This document shows, in pieces, positions 147-32,900 of a stretch of DNA of 40,916 bases; the first letter of the stretch is position 1, and the number at the start of each line of letters is the position of its first letter. A program made the translations under genes and the position numbers. The notes beneath the pieces are model-generated. The model was not told the origin of the DNA. It was given only the letters and a program-made list of their open reading frames with translations, and made no database searches. The DNA comes from Undibacterium sp. (GTDB lineage Bacteria > Pseudomonadota > Gammaproteobacteria > Burkholderiales > Burkholderiaceae_D). The DNA is taken from positions 1 through 40,916 of the forward strand of contig JANXTO010000015.1 of NCBI GenBank assembly GCA_025352365.1. The letters run 5' to 3'.

Positions 147-230
147 ATATACTCCCCTCTATTAATAATAAATATCAACAATAGACCAAATAATATATGG
201 ACAATACAAATATACACACTACCAGTATAT
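147..230 (+). repeat. 84-bp intergenic element, copy A
   Basis: First of five full-length copies of a dispersed AT-rich element. It begins ATATACTCCCC and ends CAGTATAT, with an internal ATATGGACAAT and an ATATAC about 20 nt before the right end. Copy A is diverged: its internal hairpin is reduced to GACCA/TGGAC-type pairing and the right palindrome is imperfect. It lies about 175 nt upstream of the dmeR promoter. Its length equals copies B, C and D exactly, which supports a unit with defined ends. Confidence 0.75.
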
Positions 231-377
231 ATATTGTTAACATAGAGAATAACGCTGAGACAAAGTAAAACCCAGTGTAAAAATATAAGGACATCAAACT
301 ATTTCTGTGTTTTTTTGTCTTCAACATGAGACATCTTCGCTCACTTCCTCTTCATTTTTTACTCTAAATAAATTCTG

Positions 378-425
378 CTGACTTAAGGCTTTCTTAAAGC
401 TATAATATAGTCCCCTACCCTATAT
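378..425 (+). promoter_or_regulatory. dmeR promoter with overlapping repressor operator
   Basis: A -35 like CTGACT (378-383) and a perfect -10 TATAAT (401-406) are separated by 17 nt. Overlapping the -10 and the expected start site is an inverted repeat ATATAG (405-410) / CTATAT (420-425) around a C-rich 9-nt centre. RcnR/DmeR-type repressors bind AT palindromes around G/C tracts; a rhizobial DmeR box with ATATAG/CTATAT-like arms and a C run is known. Placement over the core promoter fits autorepression relieved by Co(II)/Ni(II). The operator role is inferred. Confidence 0.7.
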
Positions 426-438
426 TTAGAGATCAGAC

Positions 439-714
439 ATGGGTCATACTGTCCGCAATAAACAGAAGCTTCTTAACCGTGTACGCCGTATCCGTGGACA
501 AATCGATGCGATTGAGCGTACTTTGCTTGAAGAAAGTAGCTGTATCACCGTACTGCAGCAGCTCACGAGTTGCAGAGGCGCGATGAACGGCTTGCTTGCC
601 GTTGTACTGGAAGATCACATCCGCACTCATCTGGTCGATGCTGAGCCACATGATGGAGAAGAGAGTGACGGCAAAGAACAGTTGGTAGAAATCATTCACA
701 GCTATTTTAAGTAG
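439..714 (+). CDS. dmeR: Metal-sensing repressor, CsoR/RcnR/DmeR family
   Basis: A 91-residue all-helical regulator of the DUF156 (FrmR/RcnR/CsoR) family. These proteins form tetramers that leave DNA when metal binds. The ligands used by RcnR for Ni(II)/Co(II) are all present at matching positions: His3, Cys35, His60 and His64. FrmR, the formaldehyde sensor, lacks the full His set, so a cobalt/nickel sensor is the better reading. The N-terminal basic helix (RNKQKLLNRVRRIRGQ) is typical of the DNA-binding face. An operator overlaps its promoter at 405-425. It lies 55 nt before the DmeF-like exporter on the same strand, so the two are probably one unit and the exporter is its target. The symbol rests on this pairing. 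Confidence 0.88.
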   Translation: MGHTVRNKQKLLNRVRRIRGQIDAIERTLLEESSCITVLQQLTSCRGAMNGLLAVVLEDHIRTHLVDAEPHDGEESDGKEQLVEIIHSYFK

Positions 715-769
715 ACTGAAGCTTAGAGATTATTAAAAATTAGTTGAAATAATTATTAAAGGTAACGCT

Positions 770-30800: not shown

Positions 30801-31939
30801 GCGGCAAATGGCTGGTCAATCAGATTCAGGAATCGAGTCTGAATGTCTTGCACGGCGTCTATGCCACCGTGTATGCGCCCTATTGGTACCGGCTATTGGG
30901 GGCAAAAGTGGGACGCGGCGCAGAGATTTCAACTGCCTTGGGCGTCGTGCCAGATATGCTGACACTGGGGGATGACACCTTTATCGCTGATGCAGTTTTA
31001 TTAGGAGATGAAGAAATTGATGGCGGCTGGATGAGTATGCAGCCGACCGTAATTTCTCGCCGGAGCTTTGTCGGTAACGGTGCGTATATTCCAGATGGCA
31101 CGATCTTGCCTGAGAATGTTTTAATCGGCGTCCACACCAGCGCACCACGCAATGATCAGATGCATGAGGGCGACACCTGGCTGGGTTCGCCACCAATGCA
31201 TTTGCCCGCACGGGAAGAAGTCAAAGGTTTCCCCGAAGAACTTACCTTCCGTCCCTCGGCAATGCGTCGTCTTGGTCGTGGTCTGATTGAAGCATTTAGG
31301 ATTATTTCTCCCCATGCGATGGTGATTTCTGTTGGCTACACCATTGTGCTCAATCTGATGCCTTTGGCCGGTGATGACCGCTGGGGCGATGTGGCCTATT
31401 ATTTATCGATTGCCGGACTTTGGTATGGCGTAGGTAGTTTTGCCTTTGTCATGGCCTTGAAATGGTTGTTCATTTTCCGCTACAAAAAGAGCAGCATGCC
31501 AATGTGGACCTCGTTTGTCTGGCTGTCTGAAGGCATTACCAATTTGTACGAAGGGATTGCTGTCCCCAACTTCATGCGCTATTTGCGCGGAACACCTTGG
31601 TTGCCATTGGCGTTTAATTTGTTGGGTGCCAGAATTGGTCGTGGTGTTTATCTGGATACGACGGATATTACCGAGTTTGATTGCGTCAGCATCGGTGCAT
31701 ATAGTGAGATCAATGCACTGGCCTGCCCACAAACTCATTTGTTTGAAGACCGCGTGATGAAGATTGACGAAGTTATCATCGGTGAACGCGTCTACATGGG
31801 TGCCCGCAGCTCGGTGTTATATAGCGCCGTCGTGGGTGACGAAGCTAAACTCGGCGCGCTGACTCTGGTAATGAAGGGCGAATTTATCCCCGCCAAATCC
31901 AGCTGGCGCGGCTGCCCAGCAGCGATTGCGCAATCCTGA
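27851..31939 (+). CDS. Pls/PosA-type non-ribosomal peptide synthetase
   Basis: A 1362-residue membrane NRPS. The adenylation domain (about 20-555) has core motifs [12 protein letters not shown] (about 195), [47 protein letters not shown] and SGKIDRK. The carrier domain follows with [11 protein letters not shown] (Ser near 591). There is no standard condensation or thioesterase domain. Instead, the C-terminal 700 residues hold transmembrane helices alternating with three left-handed-helix (hexapeptide) acyltransferase-like units, each preceded by a [10 protein letters not shown]-type motif. This layout is that of epsilon-poly-lysine synthetase and relatives, which make isopeptide homopolymers or decorate amines. 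The substrate is unknown. ATG 27851 is provisional. The PPTase gene follows by 4 nt. Confidence 0.9.
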   Translation: [1362 protein letters not shown]

Positions 31940-31943
31940 CGAG

Positions 31944-32621
31944 ATGAGGGCTGACGCAGACTCGTCCAATCCGATGCCGACGGCATTGGTAACTGTTGCT
32001 ACAGCATCCAAGCTAGCTGTGTATTCCTGGCCTGATTTATTGCCAGAAGCGGTAGAAGCATTCCATCAACACAAAAGCGTAGTTATTTCTGTAGTTACAG
32101 AGGTAACTACGCTGCGTGATCAAGCCAGACTGCAAATACGCCACGCCTTGCGGGATTTGCTCTCGCAAGCCTTCTCTATCCCGCAGAAACAAGTGCAAAT
32201 TGTAGGATCGGTAGGACAAGCTTTAAGTATCCGTATTAATTCCAGCGACACAGACAAATATGCTCATGAACAAGAGATCGCGCTAGGCGTGTCGATCAGT
32301 CATGAGCCGGGTTTATCTATTGCGGCGATCAGTTTTCAAAAAAATATCGGCATTGATCTGATGCGGGTCGATTTGTCCCTGGATTGGCGGGATGTAACAC
32401 AACTTTATTTAGGCGATGAGGTCTATAAAAAAATCACCGGACAAACAGCTCAGCATCAGCTGCTGATATTTGCACAAGAATGGACTGTGCAAGAGGCTAG
32501 ACTGAAGTCCCAAGGATTGGTTTTATCAGAATGGCATCCTGATCTGGCAGCACGTTTAAAAAAATGCAGAACGATATTGTTAGATTTGCCATCCGGCTAT
32601 GTGGGTGCCATCGCCTTTTAA
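31944..32621 (+). CDS. 4'-phosphopantetheinyl transferase-like protein
   Basis: A 225-residue protein of the phosphopantetheinyl transferase superfamily (Sfp-type). Motifs: VSISHEPG, GIDLMRVD (about 136-143, metal-binding Asp) and EWTVQEARLKSQGL (about 178-191), where the usual W-S/T-x-K-E-A has Gln in place of Lys. It starts 4 nt after the synthetase stop, so it very probably converts that protein's carrier domain from apo to holo form by adding phosphopantetheine from CoA. A TTG 18 nt upstream, overlapping the synthetase, is an alternative start. The N-terminal half is divergent, so the assignment rests on the two motifs and the context. Confidence 0.82.
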   Translation: MRADADSSNPMPTALVTVATASKLAVYSWPDLLPEAVEAFHQHKSVVISVVTEVTTLRDQARLQIRHALRDLLSQAFSIPQKQVQIVGSVGQALSIRINSSDTDKYAHEQEIALGVSISHEPGLSIAAISFQKNIGIDLMRVDLSLDWRDVTQLYLGDEVYKKITGQTAQHQLLIFAQEWTVQEARLKSQGLVLSEWHPDLAARLKKCRTILLDLPSGYVGAIAF

Positions 32622-32815
32622 AAACGGTAAAAATGGTCAAAGCCTGAAATGGTTCAGACTCGCACCAGAACTTAAAAATGACTGGAGCTTGTTGTCTGGA
32701 TAAGAACTGGAATTTATTGGGTAAGAGATCTAAGCTTAACGCTAAGTGGCCTAAGTAGCGTCAAACAAACATGCCACATTATGAATGGCCGCATTATGAT
32801 TAGCTTGGTGAATTA

Positions 32816-32900
32816 ATATACTCCCCTATTAATTCTTTAAAATATAGCTTAACGTCCAATGATTTATTGGACGTTAAAAATATACTCACCATCAGTATAA
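32816..32900 (+). repeat. 84-bp intergenic element, copy E (best hairpin)
   Basis: Begins ATATACTCCCCTATT and ends CAGTATAA. It contains a perfect 12-bp hairpin TTAACGTCCAAT / ATTGGACGTTAA with loop GATTT (32849-32877), the clearest internal stem of the family, followed by AAATATACTCACC. It lies upstream of the BamE-like lipoprotein gene; the rest of the 32622-32940 gap shows nothing else. Confidence 0.85.

Follow-up and report, generated by a model that had tools for sequence, protein, structure and literature searches.

Copies of the element in the window

The DNA analyzed here, which we call the window, is a stretch of 40,916 nucleotides of Undibacterium sp. (contig JANXTO010000015.1). It contains a palindromic element of about 84 nt in six dispersed copies, five of them full and one broken (Table 1). 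The five full copies are where the original prediction, made from the sequence alone, had placed them, and they align over their whole length. The unit has a left end, ATACTCCCC, and continues through a T-run and an A-run to a central palindrome, and then through ATATAC and a short spacer to GAGTAT. We refer to ATACTCCCC, the central palindrome, ATATAC, and GAGTAT as the core of the element.

In copy E the central stem is perfect over 12 bp (TTAACGTCCAAT/ATTGGACGTTAA), just as had been described. On the other hand, a right-end palindrome proposed as ATATACTC-N5-GAGTATAT occurs in that exact form in none of the five full copies; copy D comes nearest to it, and A, B, C, and E have looser ATATAC...GTAT forms. 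The rearranged sixth copy claimed near 27461 is indeed a remnant of the family, and consists of a broken copy plus a very weak inverted left-end piece (27461-27483, minus strand, E-value 4.1).

Table 1. Coordinates of the element copies and related features. Positions are those of the window unless a locus is named.
Feature	Position	Strand	Remarks
Full copy A	147..230	+	84 nt; ortholog at the same place in the sister species G015
Full copy B	6856..6939	+	84 nt; convergent genes on either side; entire segment replaced in G015
Full copy C	10748..10831	-	84 nt; present in G015 despite differing flanks
Full copy D	20283..20366	-	84 nt
Broken copy	27461..27540	+	model positions 25-86 at 27481-27540
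Full copy E	32816..32900	+	85 nt
Copy E, left end ATACTCCCC	32818..32826	+	seen directly
Copy E, central palindrome	32849..32877	+	12-bp stem and 5-nt loop; seen directly
Copy E, right end	32880..32898	+	ATATAC, spacer, AGTAT; seen directly
Same-orientation arrays with different small genes in two sister species	L221:6359-17685, L222:6401-14630		cassette-like look, no linked integrase

A sequence-only model built from 33 training sequences (R1) scores the five full copies at 59-75 bits, which is not an independent test because all five are in the training set. Counted with at most 2 mismatches, ATATACTCCCC has 17 matches in the window, compared with a mean of 6.2 in shuffled sequences, and none of 100 shuffles reaches 17. 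Scanning the window with Rfam 15 gave no match at the gathering score, by which we reject a known Rfam 15 RNA family.

A large family of nearly constant length

The source genome (G000; 4,016,085 bases in 362 contigs) has many more copies. A strict pattern of 18 fixed bases has 51 exact matches in it, versus none for the same pattern read backwards, and the R1 search reports at least 151 matches. We read 371,439 bases completely, consisting of the window and all or part of six further long contigs chosen from those with matches. They contain 37 full copies, a count that omits 6 partial matches and 2 opposite-strand echoes and amounts to about 1 per 10 kb; the genome should therefore carry roughly 400 copies. 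The consensus from 158 distinct copies of this genome (159 rows minus one duplicate) is aATATACTCCCCn-ttatTTTtnnnAAAaatgccttATtGtCCAatnatTataTGGACaattaAaATATACtnannnngAGTA-Tat.

Measured from ATACT to AGTA, the span is 78-79 nt for 68 of 70 copies of the source genome. It is 77-79 nt in 65 of 66 measured matches from other species, a set taken from 67 unfiltered alignment rows that still contains opposite-strand echoes. Once these echoes and some duplicate or orthologous copies are removed, 56 other-species copies are kept for the mismatch and end-box counts reported below; the folding tests use 57 rows. The ends form terminal inverted repeats, with 9 perfect bases in 29/55 other-species copies and 5-9 in 143/151 copies of the source genome. 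With more than 150 copies, and with a nearly fixed spacing in those measured, the family is neither small nor free in length, and the original claim of a genome-wide family of constant length holds. It was also correct that copies avoid genes: of 158 distinct copies, a single one is well within a called open reading frame (ORF), and since gene calls are simple longest-ORF calls, that copy may reflect a wrong start.

How far does the family extend? Using a structure-aware model built from 20 copies of many species (R2), we find matches in 22 of 39 genomes of the genus. Fifteen of these have between 17 and at least 114 matches, G003 has 5, G022 has 2, and each of five genomes of 5.9-6.7 Mb has exactly one. 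An order-wide search, performed with strict filters and with 11 candidates scored per genome, matches 4/399 genomes, all four from Undibacterium, and none of the 395 genomes of other genera (157 genera, including nine genomes of the same family) at an E-value of 1e-4. The R1 model likewise matches none of 16 genomes of other genera. Within the genomes searched, the family is confined to Undibacterium. No report of it appears among the matches listed in the openly licensed literature for the genus, the family, or the repeat, and the main text of the RepRanger paper (PMC12306157) has no mention of Undibacterium, Burkholderi- or Oxalobacter-.

Copies remain in place between species

We traced 27 matches of the source genome in the sister species G015, which is about 95% identical. 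Of the 24 full copies among them, 23 have a counterpart at the corresponding site; in 16 cases the spacing between the flanks is identical, and in one the element is interrupted by an insertion. The sole exception is copy B of the window (Table 1). In the stretches compared, there is no clean empty site for any of the 24 full copies. One G015 copy sits in a segment of ~7 kb specific to that species. For a second pair of species, G044 and G050, about 91% identical, each of the 13 elements on G044:C9 pairs collinearly with one of the 14 on G050:C11, as matched by eye from the listed coordinates; the fourteenth is in a 590-bp segment, and the corresponding G044 stretch has ~8 kb of other sequence. 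The copies are old, with no sign of present movement.

In the interrupted copy (L101:1715-2908), the insertion lies beside the central palindrome and encodes a protein with HTH_38 and rve domains (Pfam); we take it to be of IS30 type. The end of the HTH_38/rve ORF itself carries ATATACTCCCC.

Some sites are common to distant species as well. As an example, a region of G004 encoding an amidohydrolase, a SIS protein, and a solute-binding protein (all by Pfam; we call the first gene nagA-like) is found in 38/39 genomes, and we compared 30 of the loci. In 17 of them the element stands behind the SIS gene (E-value 5.4e-8 or better), with flanks down to 73% identity. G052 provides an eighteenth locus with a weak match (E-value 0.035), in which the ends, ATGCTCCC and GGGAGCAT, are altered in a matching manner and the element folds almost completely. 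Of the 12 element-free loci, six have at the same place a hairpin followed by T's, and the remaining six have neither the element nor such a hairpin in the sequence read. Three of the element-free gaps (L301, L302, and L306, from G001, G012, and G053) hold a different palindrome, CTGCG(T/C)TCAGG...CCTGAGCGCAG, which is perhaps another dispersed family.

The ends of the element change slowly

In 22 orthologous copies of G000 and G015, the left end has 0.035 substitutions per site, ATATAC 0.019, and GAGTAT 0.030, to be compared with 0.092 in the flanks and with 0.119 and 0.114 in the spacers within the element. For the left stem arm the value is 0.074, and for the loop 0.106. The difference is significant between core and non-core positions (p 0.00016) and between core and flanks (p 0.006). 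The pair G044/G050 agrees: in 9 copies, we count 0/81 changes in the left end and 12/342 in the core versus 224/1722 in the flanks (p 2.5e-8).

Copies were located through one species per pair, and some core changes on that branch are censored; departures from the core consensus are nevertheless present in both species of a pair. Gene conversion is unlikely as a cause, because orthologs share copy-specific spacers. Neutral decay, subject to the same ascertainment caveat, is disfavored by the slow change of the core in place. The element is now resident and held under selection.

The central stem covaries between species

In an alignment of 20 sequences from many species, made without using structure, 7 of the 8 pairs of the central stem have changes on both sides. 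The covariation score is 0.165 vs. 0.091, and none of 500 shuffles reaches the observed score; when the partner is slid by 1-3 columns, the score drops to 0.035-0.075. The five outermost pairs of the ends are uninformative, because they hardly vary in this alignment. Within the source genome covariation is weak, and RNAalifold predicts no pairs on 33 of its copies because these vary little. The whole element folds better than dinucleotide shuffles, with z about -2.4 for the source genome and -3.5 for other species, and equally so on both strands; the difference in raw folding energy between the strands is a composition effect.

If the stem works in RNA, G-U should be tolerated on the transcribed strand and A-C should not. 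Over 74 copies, mismatches of the two kinds are equal (33 G-T and 37 A-C). This equality, and strands that fold equally well relative to shuffles, lead us to reject an RNA element of one fixed strand. Splitting tandem contexts by the direction of transcription gives a different picture: we count G-T/A-C mismatches at 22/15 for copies whose two neighboring genes share the element's direction, and at 14/28 for copies whose neighbors both have the opposite direction (p 0.025), with a one-sided per-copy permutation p of 0.014. This asymmetry by transcribed strand is the main, modest evidence that the element may act in transcripts.

Copies are biased to gene 3' ends

The 158 copies of the source genome lie in 91 tandem, 44 convergent, and 17 divergent gaps, and 6 have no neighbor on one side. 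Background gaps of at least 90 bp are 106 tandem, 28 convergent, and 35 divergent (convergent versus divergent, p 0.002), with longest-ORF gene calls of at least 100 aa for the background and at least 90 aa for the copies. The two element ends face a gene 3' end in 89/152 and 90/152 cases, relative to a background of 0.479 (p 0.009 and 0.006). Copies avoid divergent promoters. Like repetitive extragenic palindromes (REPs), the family has numerous copies outside genes, with a preference for gene 3' ends.

Intrinsic terminators outside the element are found at 27/157 of the adjacent 3' ends versus 44/133 element-free ends (p 0.0024), under slightly different rules for the two classes. The position of the element at 3' ends fits an intrinsic terminator, a G+C-rich hairpin followed by a T-run, but few ends have a conventional terminator that overlaps the element; at 5/157 ends there is one inside the element and nowhere else.

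Alternatively, selection could act on the element as DNA rather than RNA, with the element forming a cruciform or being bound by a chromosomal protein. We consider this rather unlikely. It agrees with the ends and ATATAC being the most conserved parts, with the overall equality of G-T and A-C mismatches, and with the equal folding of both strands. Against it are the bias to 3' ends with fewer terminators nearby, the wobble asymmetry that emerges after splitting copies by transcription direction, and a copy number that goes from none to hundreds between congeners.

Which enzyme could have moved the element?

The original prediction was of a unit like a miniature inverted-repeat transposable element (MITE) or a REP, moved by an enzyme encoded elsewhere, or else of a selected structure. 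The description of a dispersed family of constant length stands, with a conserved core and a covarying stem. What fails to find support is the movement by an enzyme encoded elsewhere: orthologous gaps compared with G015 include no clean empty site, there is no convincing target duplication, and a Y1 transposase does not track the element. The test for target duplications in 48 copies of the source genome, in which A+T-rich flanks are a limit, has a best z of 3.1 among 225 combinations; the corresponding other-species set is confounded by related flanks. The enzyme searches across the genus covered Y1 transposases and integron integrases, and not other transposases.

A relative of the Y1 transposase (Y1_Tnp) is present in 38/39 genomes, with or without the element. 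In 11/11 loci inspected, its gene lies in front of a class-II glutamine-amidotransferase gene (by Pfam for one), presumably of the glutamate-synthase type. The Y1 relative is single-copy in loci L275, L279, and L281-L290. Behind it, in 12/12 loci inspected, recurs a sequence GACCC(T/C) that is unlike the element. The element itself stands behind the Y1 gene in 2/30 loci fetched, those of G000 and G021.

These observations leave the Y1 transposase, similar to the REP-associated tyrosine transposases (RAYTs), unsupported as the mobilizer. A REPIN-like element moved by it would explain the near-universal Y1_Tnp gene and the two loci with the element just behind it, and we regard this as very improbable, given that the gene also occurs in genomes lacking the element, that it has its own recurring downstream sequence, and that GTAG within the first 12 bases is found in 0/214 copies on either strand (0/158 from the source genome, 0/56 from other species). 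Counted anywhere, GTAG is near chance in the source genome (16 and 24 of 158, with 19.1 expected). CGTC, counted anywhere only, occurs in 18 and 39 of 158, and a CGTC end tag is excluded because the end consensus is ATACTC/GAGTAT.

Several described families are close to the element. REPs of the GTAG and CGTC superfamilies are extragenic palindromes of 20-40 bp that carry a GTAG or CGTC tag; they lie chiefly in tandem and convergent gaps and are believed to function as part of transcripts (PMC3733652). Our element resembles them as a many-copy extragenic palindrome of tandem and convergent gaps with related families in related species, and differs in being 84 nt long with ATACTC/GAGTAT ends and no GTAG end tag. 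TIRtrons, in the same source, are tag-less families of inverted-end repeats beside Y1 transposases, some of them self-complementary and moderately abundant. They share with our element the inverted ends without GTAG and a G-rich end motif, GGGGWSAS in TIRtrons (PMC3733652) and GGGGAGTAT here, but GGGGWSAS is in 0/214 copies, and in these genomes the element does not usually stand beside the Y1 gene.

Bacterial MITEs such as ERIC, NEMIS, and RUP (PMC3733652) are likewise short non-coding units with inverted ends, hairpin folding, and possible effects on neighboring mRNAs. In comparison, the ends of our element are only ~9 bp, neither a target duplication nor a transposase can be shown for it, and its copies are stable and selected. 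Could it still be a classical MITE, that is, a non-autonomous unit with terminal inverted repeats of ~9 bp, moved by the transposase of an insertion sequence (IS) with the same ends, and with copies now mostly decaying? A short non-coding unit bounded by inverted repeats of at most ~9 bp, a constant length, and hundreds of dispersed intergenic copies are as expected. We find it an unlikely explanation all the same, since there is neither a clean empty site nor a convincing target duplication, the ends change slowly in place, and no parent IS is seen in the stretches read, a genome-wide search for a same-ended IS not having been made.

Arrays with exchangeable genes

Two sister species have arrays of the element (Table 1). 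Between the same two genes there are 6 same-orientation copies in G050:C1 and 4 in G044:C5, separated by differing small ORFs that are mostly on the other strand. One ORF is common to both arrays (265 and 267 aa), with different neighbors. To the left, similarity between array units breaks off only a few bases from ATACTC, and to the right it continues for ~50-100 bp; the first unit of each array is an exception. Of ten proteins from the G050 array region, four have a Pfam family (DUF1877, polyketide-cyclase-like, fatty-acid hydroxylase, and GDSL lipase). Elsewhere, in G044:C10 and G050:C12, the genes between two copies differ, which fits homologous recombination better than a site-specific cut, because the edges are 41 and 132 bp from the elements.

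The arrays recall integrons. Like our element, an attC site is an imperfect palindrome whose ends are conserved and whose middle varies yet still pairs, and the same-orientation arrays with exchangeable genes in two species here are a further likeness. On the other hand, our element is mostly dispersed and has no linked integrase, and the attC end boxes RYYYAAC/GTTRRRY are found in 0/214 copies on either strand. Integron integrases score over the cut-off in 11/39 genomes, 3 with the element and 8 without it; perhaps the relation is inverse. The element is near none of the 11 integrase loci (L241-L251), within the ~3 kb fetched around each. Given this lack of tracking across the 39 genomes and of any element beside the integrase loci, we reject an integron integrase as the linked enzyme.

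Would the element be a cassette-delimiting recombination site, an attC analogue through which genes are gained and exchanged? Differing genes between the same neighbors in same-orientation arrays, the sharp break of similarity at ATACTC, and the exchanged segment between two copies would all follow from it. We judge it quite improbable, considering exchange edges set off from the elements as in homologous recombination, the missing attC boxes, integrases that do not track the element, and the fact that most copies are single, dispersed, and stable. In a fuller version, also improbable to us, the element would represent a novel type of attC analogue, which folds, has no linked integrase, and serves as a recombination site delimiting exchangeable cassettes in the genus. 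Its single-site insertions would have given rise to the hundreds of resident copies, and these would later have been domesticated as ends of transcripts.

Other observations

A different repeat of ~122 bp lies at L088:12667-12788 (G000:C188), with several similar copies in G015. No switch indicating a replication-strand bias is visible in the listed G015 matches (judged by eye, with no statistical test). The window also encodes a protein of 717 aa (14234-16387) that is 77-82% identical to proteins of Duganella, Janthinobacterium, and relatives, with named Undibacterium matches at 74-77%, in a match list that may omit records of its own species.

Interpretation and significance

We propose that the element is a REP/MITE-like family that spread long ago and would now serve as a transcript 3'-end structure usable in two directions, and to this reading of the sequence comparisons we give about an even chance. 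In its favor are the size and fixed length of the family, its restriction to the genus, the copies kept in place between species, the slowly changing core, the covarying stem, the bias to 3' ends with fewer terminators nearby, the wobble asymmetry, and the nagA-like/SIS site, at which half of the element-free loci have a hairpin followed by T's. Because unrelated intergenic sites share the element, it probably spread in the past by some transposition-like copying. It would now be transcribed together with the gene whose 3' end adjoins it. The transcript would fold (by pairing of the ends, by the central stem, or into a local right-end hairpin followed by U's), and this symmetric structure would end or protect the transcript from whichever side it is reached.

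Several results weigh against this proposal. Selection is strongest on the ends of the element. In the 22 copies of G000 and G015, the right stem arm changes faster than the flanks (0.148 vs. 0.092). Taken whole, elements are no better conserved than flanks (0.911 vs. 0.908). The stem is A+T-rich in the source genome. There is no orientation preference in tandem gaps, 46 copies being with the genes and 45 against, and some copies are just upstream of a start codon. When one strict rule is used for both classes of 3' ends, the deficit of terminators is 6/37 vs. 44/133 (p 0.065). The wobble asymmetry is modest, and the portion of the data seen first gave counts of 9/5 and 9/14 (p 0.18).

What we have is a large non-coding family, found in most sampled genomes of one genus and in none sampled outside it. 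At orthologous sites, a dispersed palindrome has ends that evolve more slowly than the sequence around them, and therefore the question of whether REP-like repeats are selfish remnants or working parts becomes directly testable. The material for such a test is at hand in the sister species, and in a defined site where some species have the element and others a terminator-like hairpin. The arrays of exchangeable genes suggest that, in Undibacterium, the element may have an added role in gene flow.

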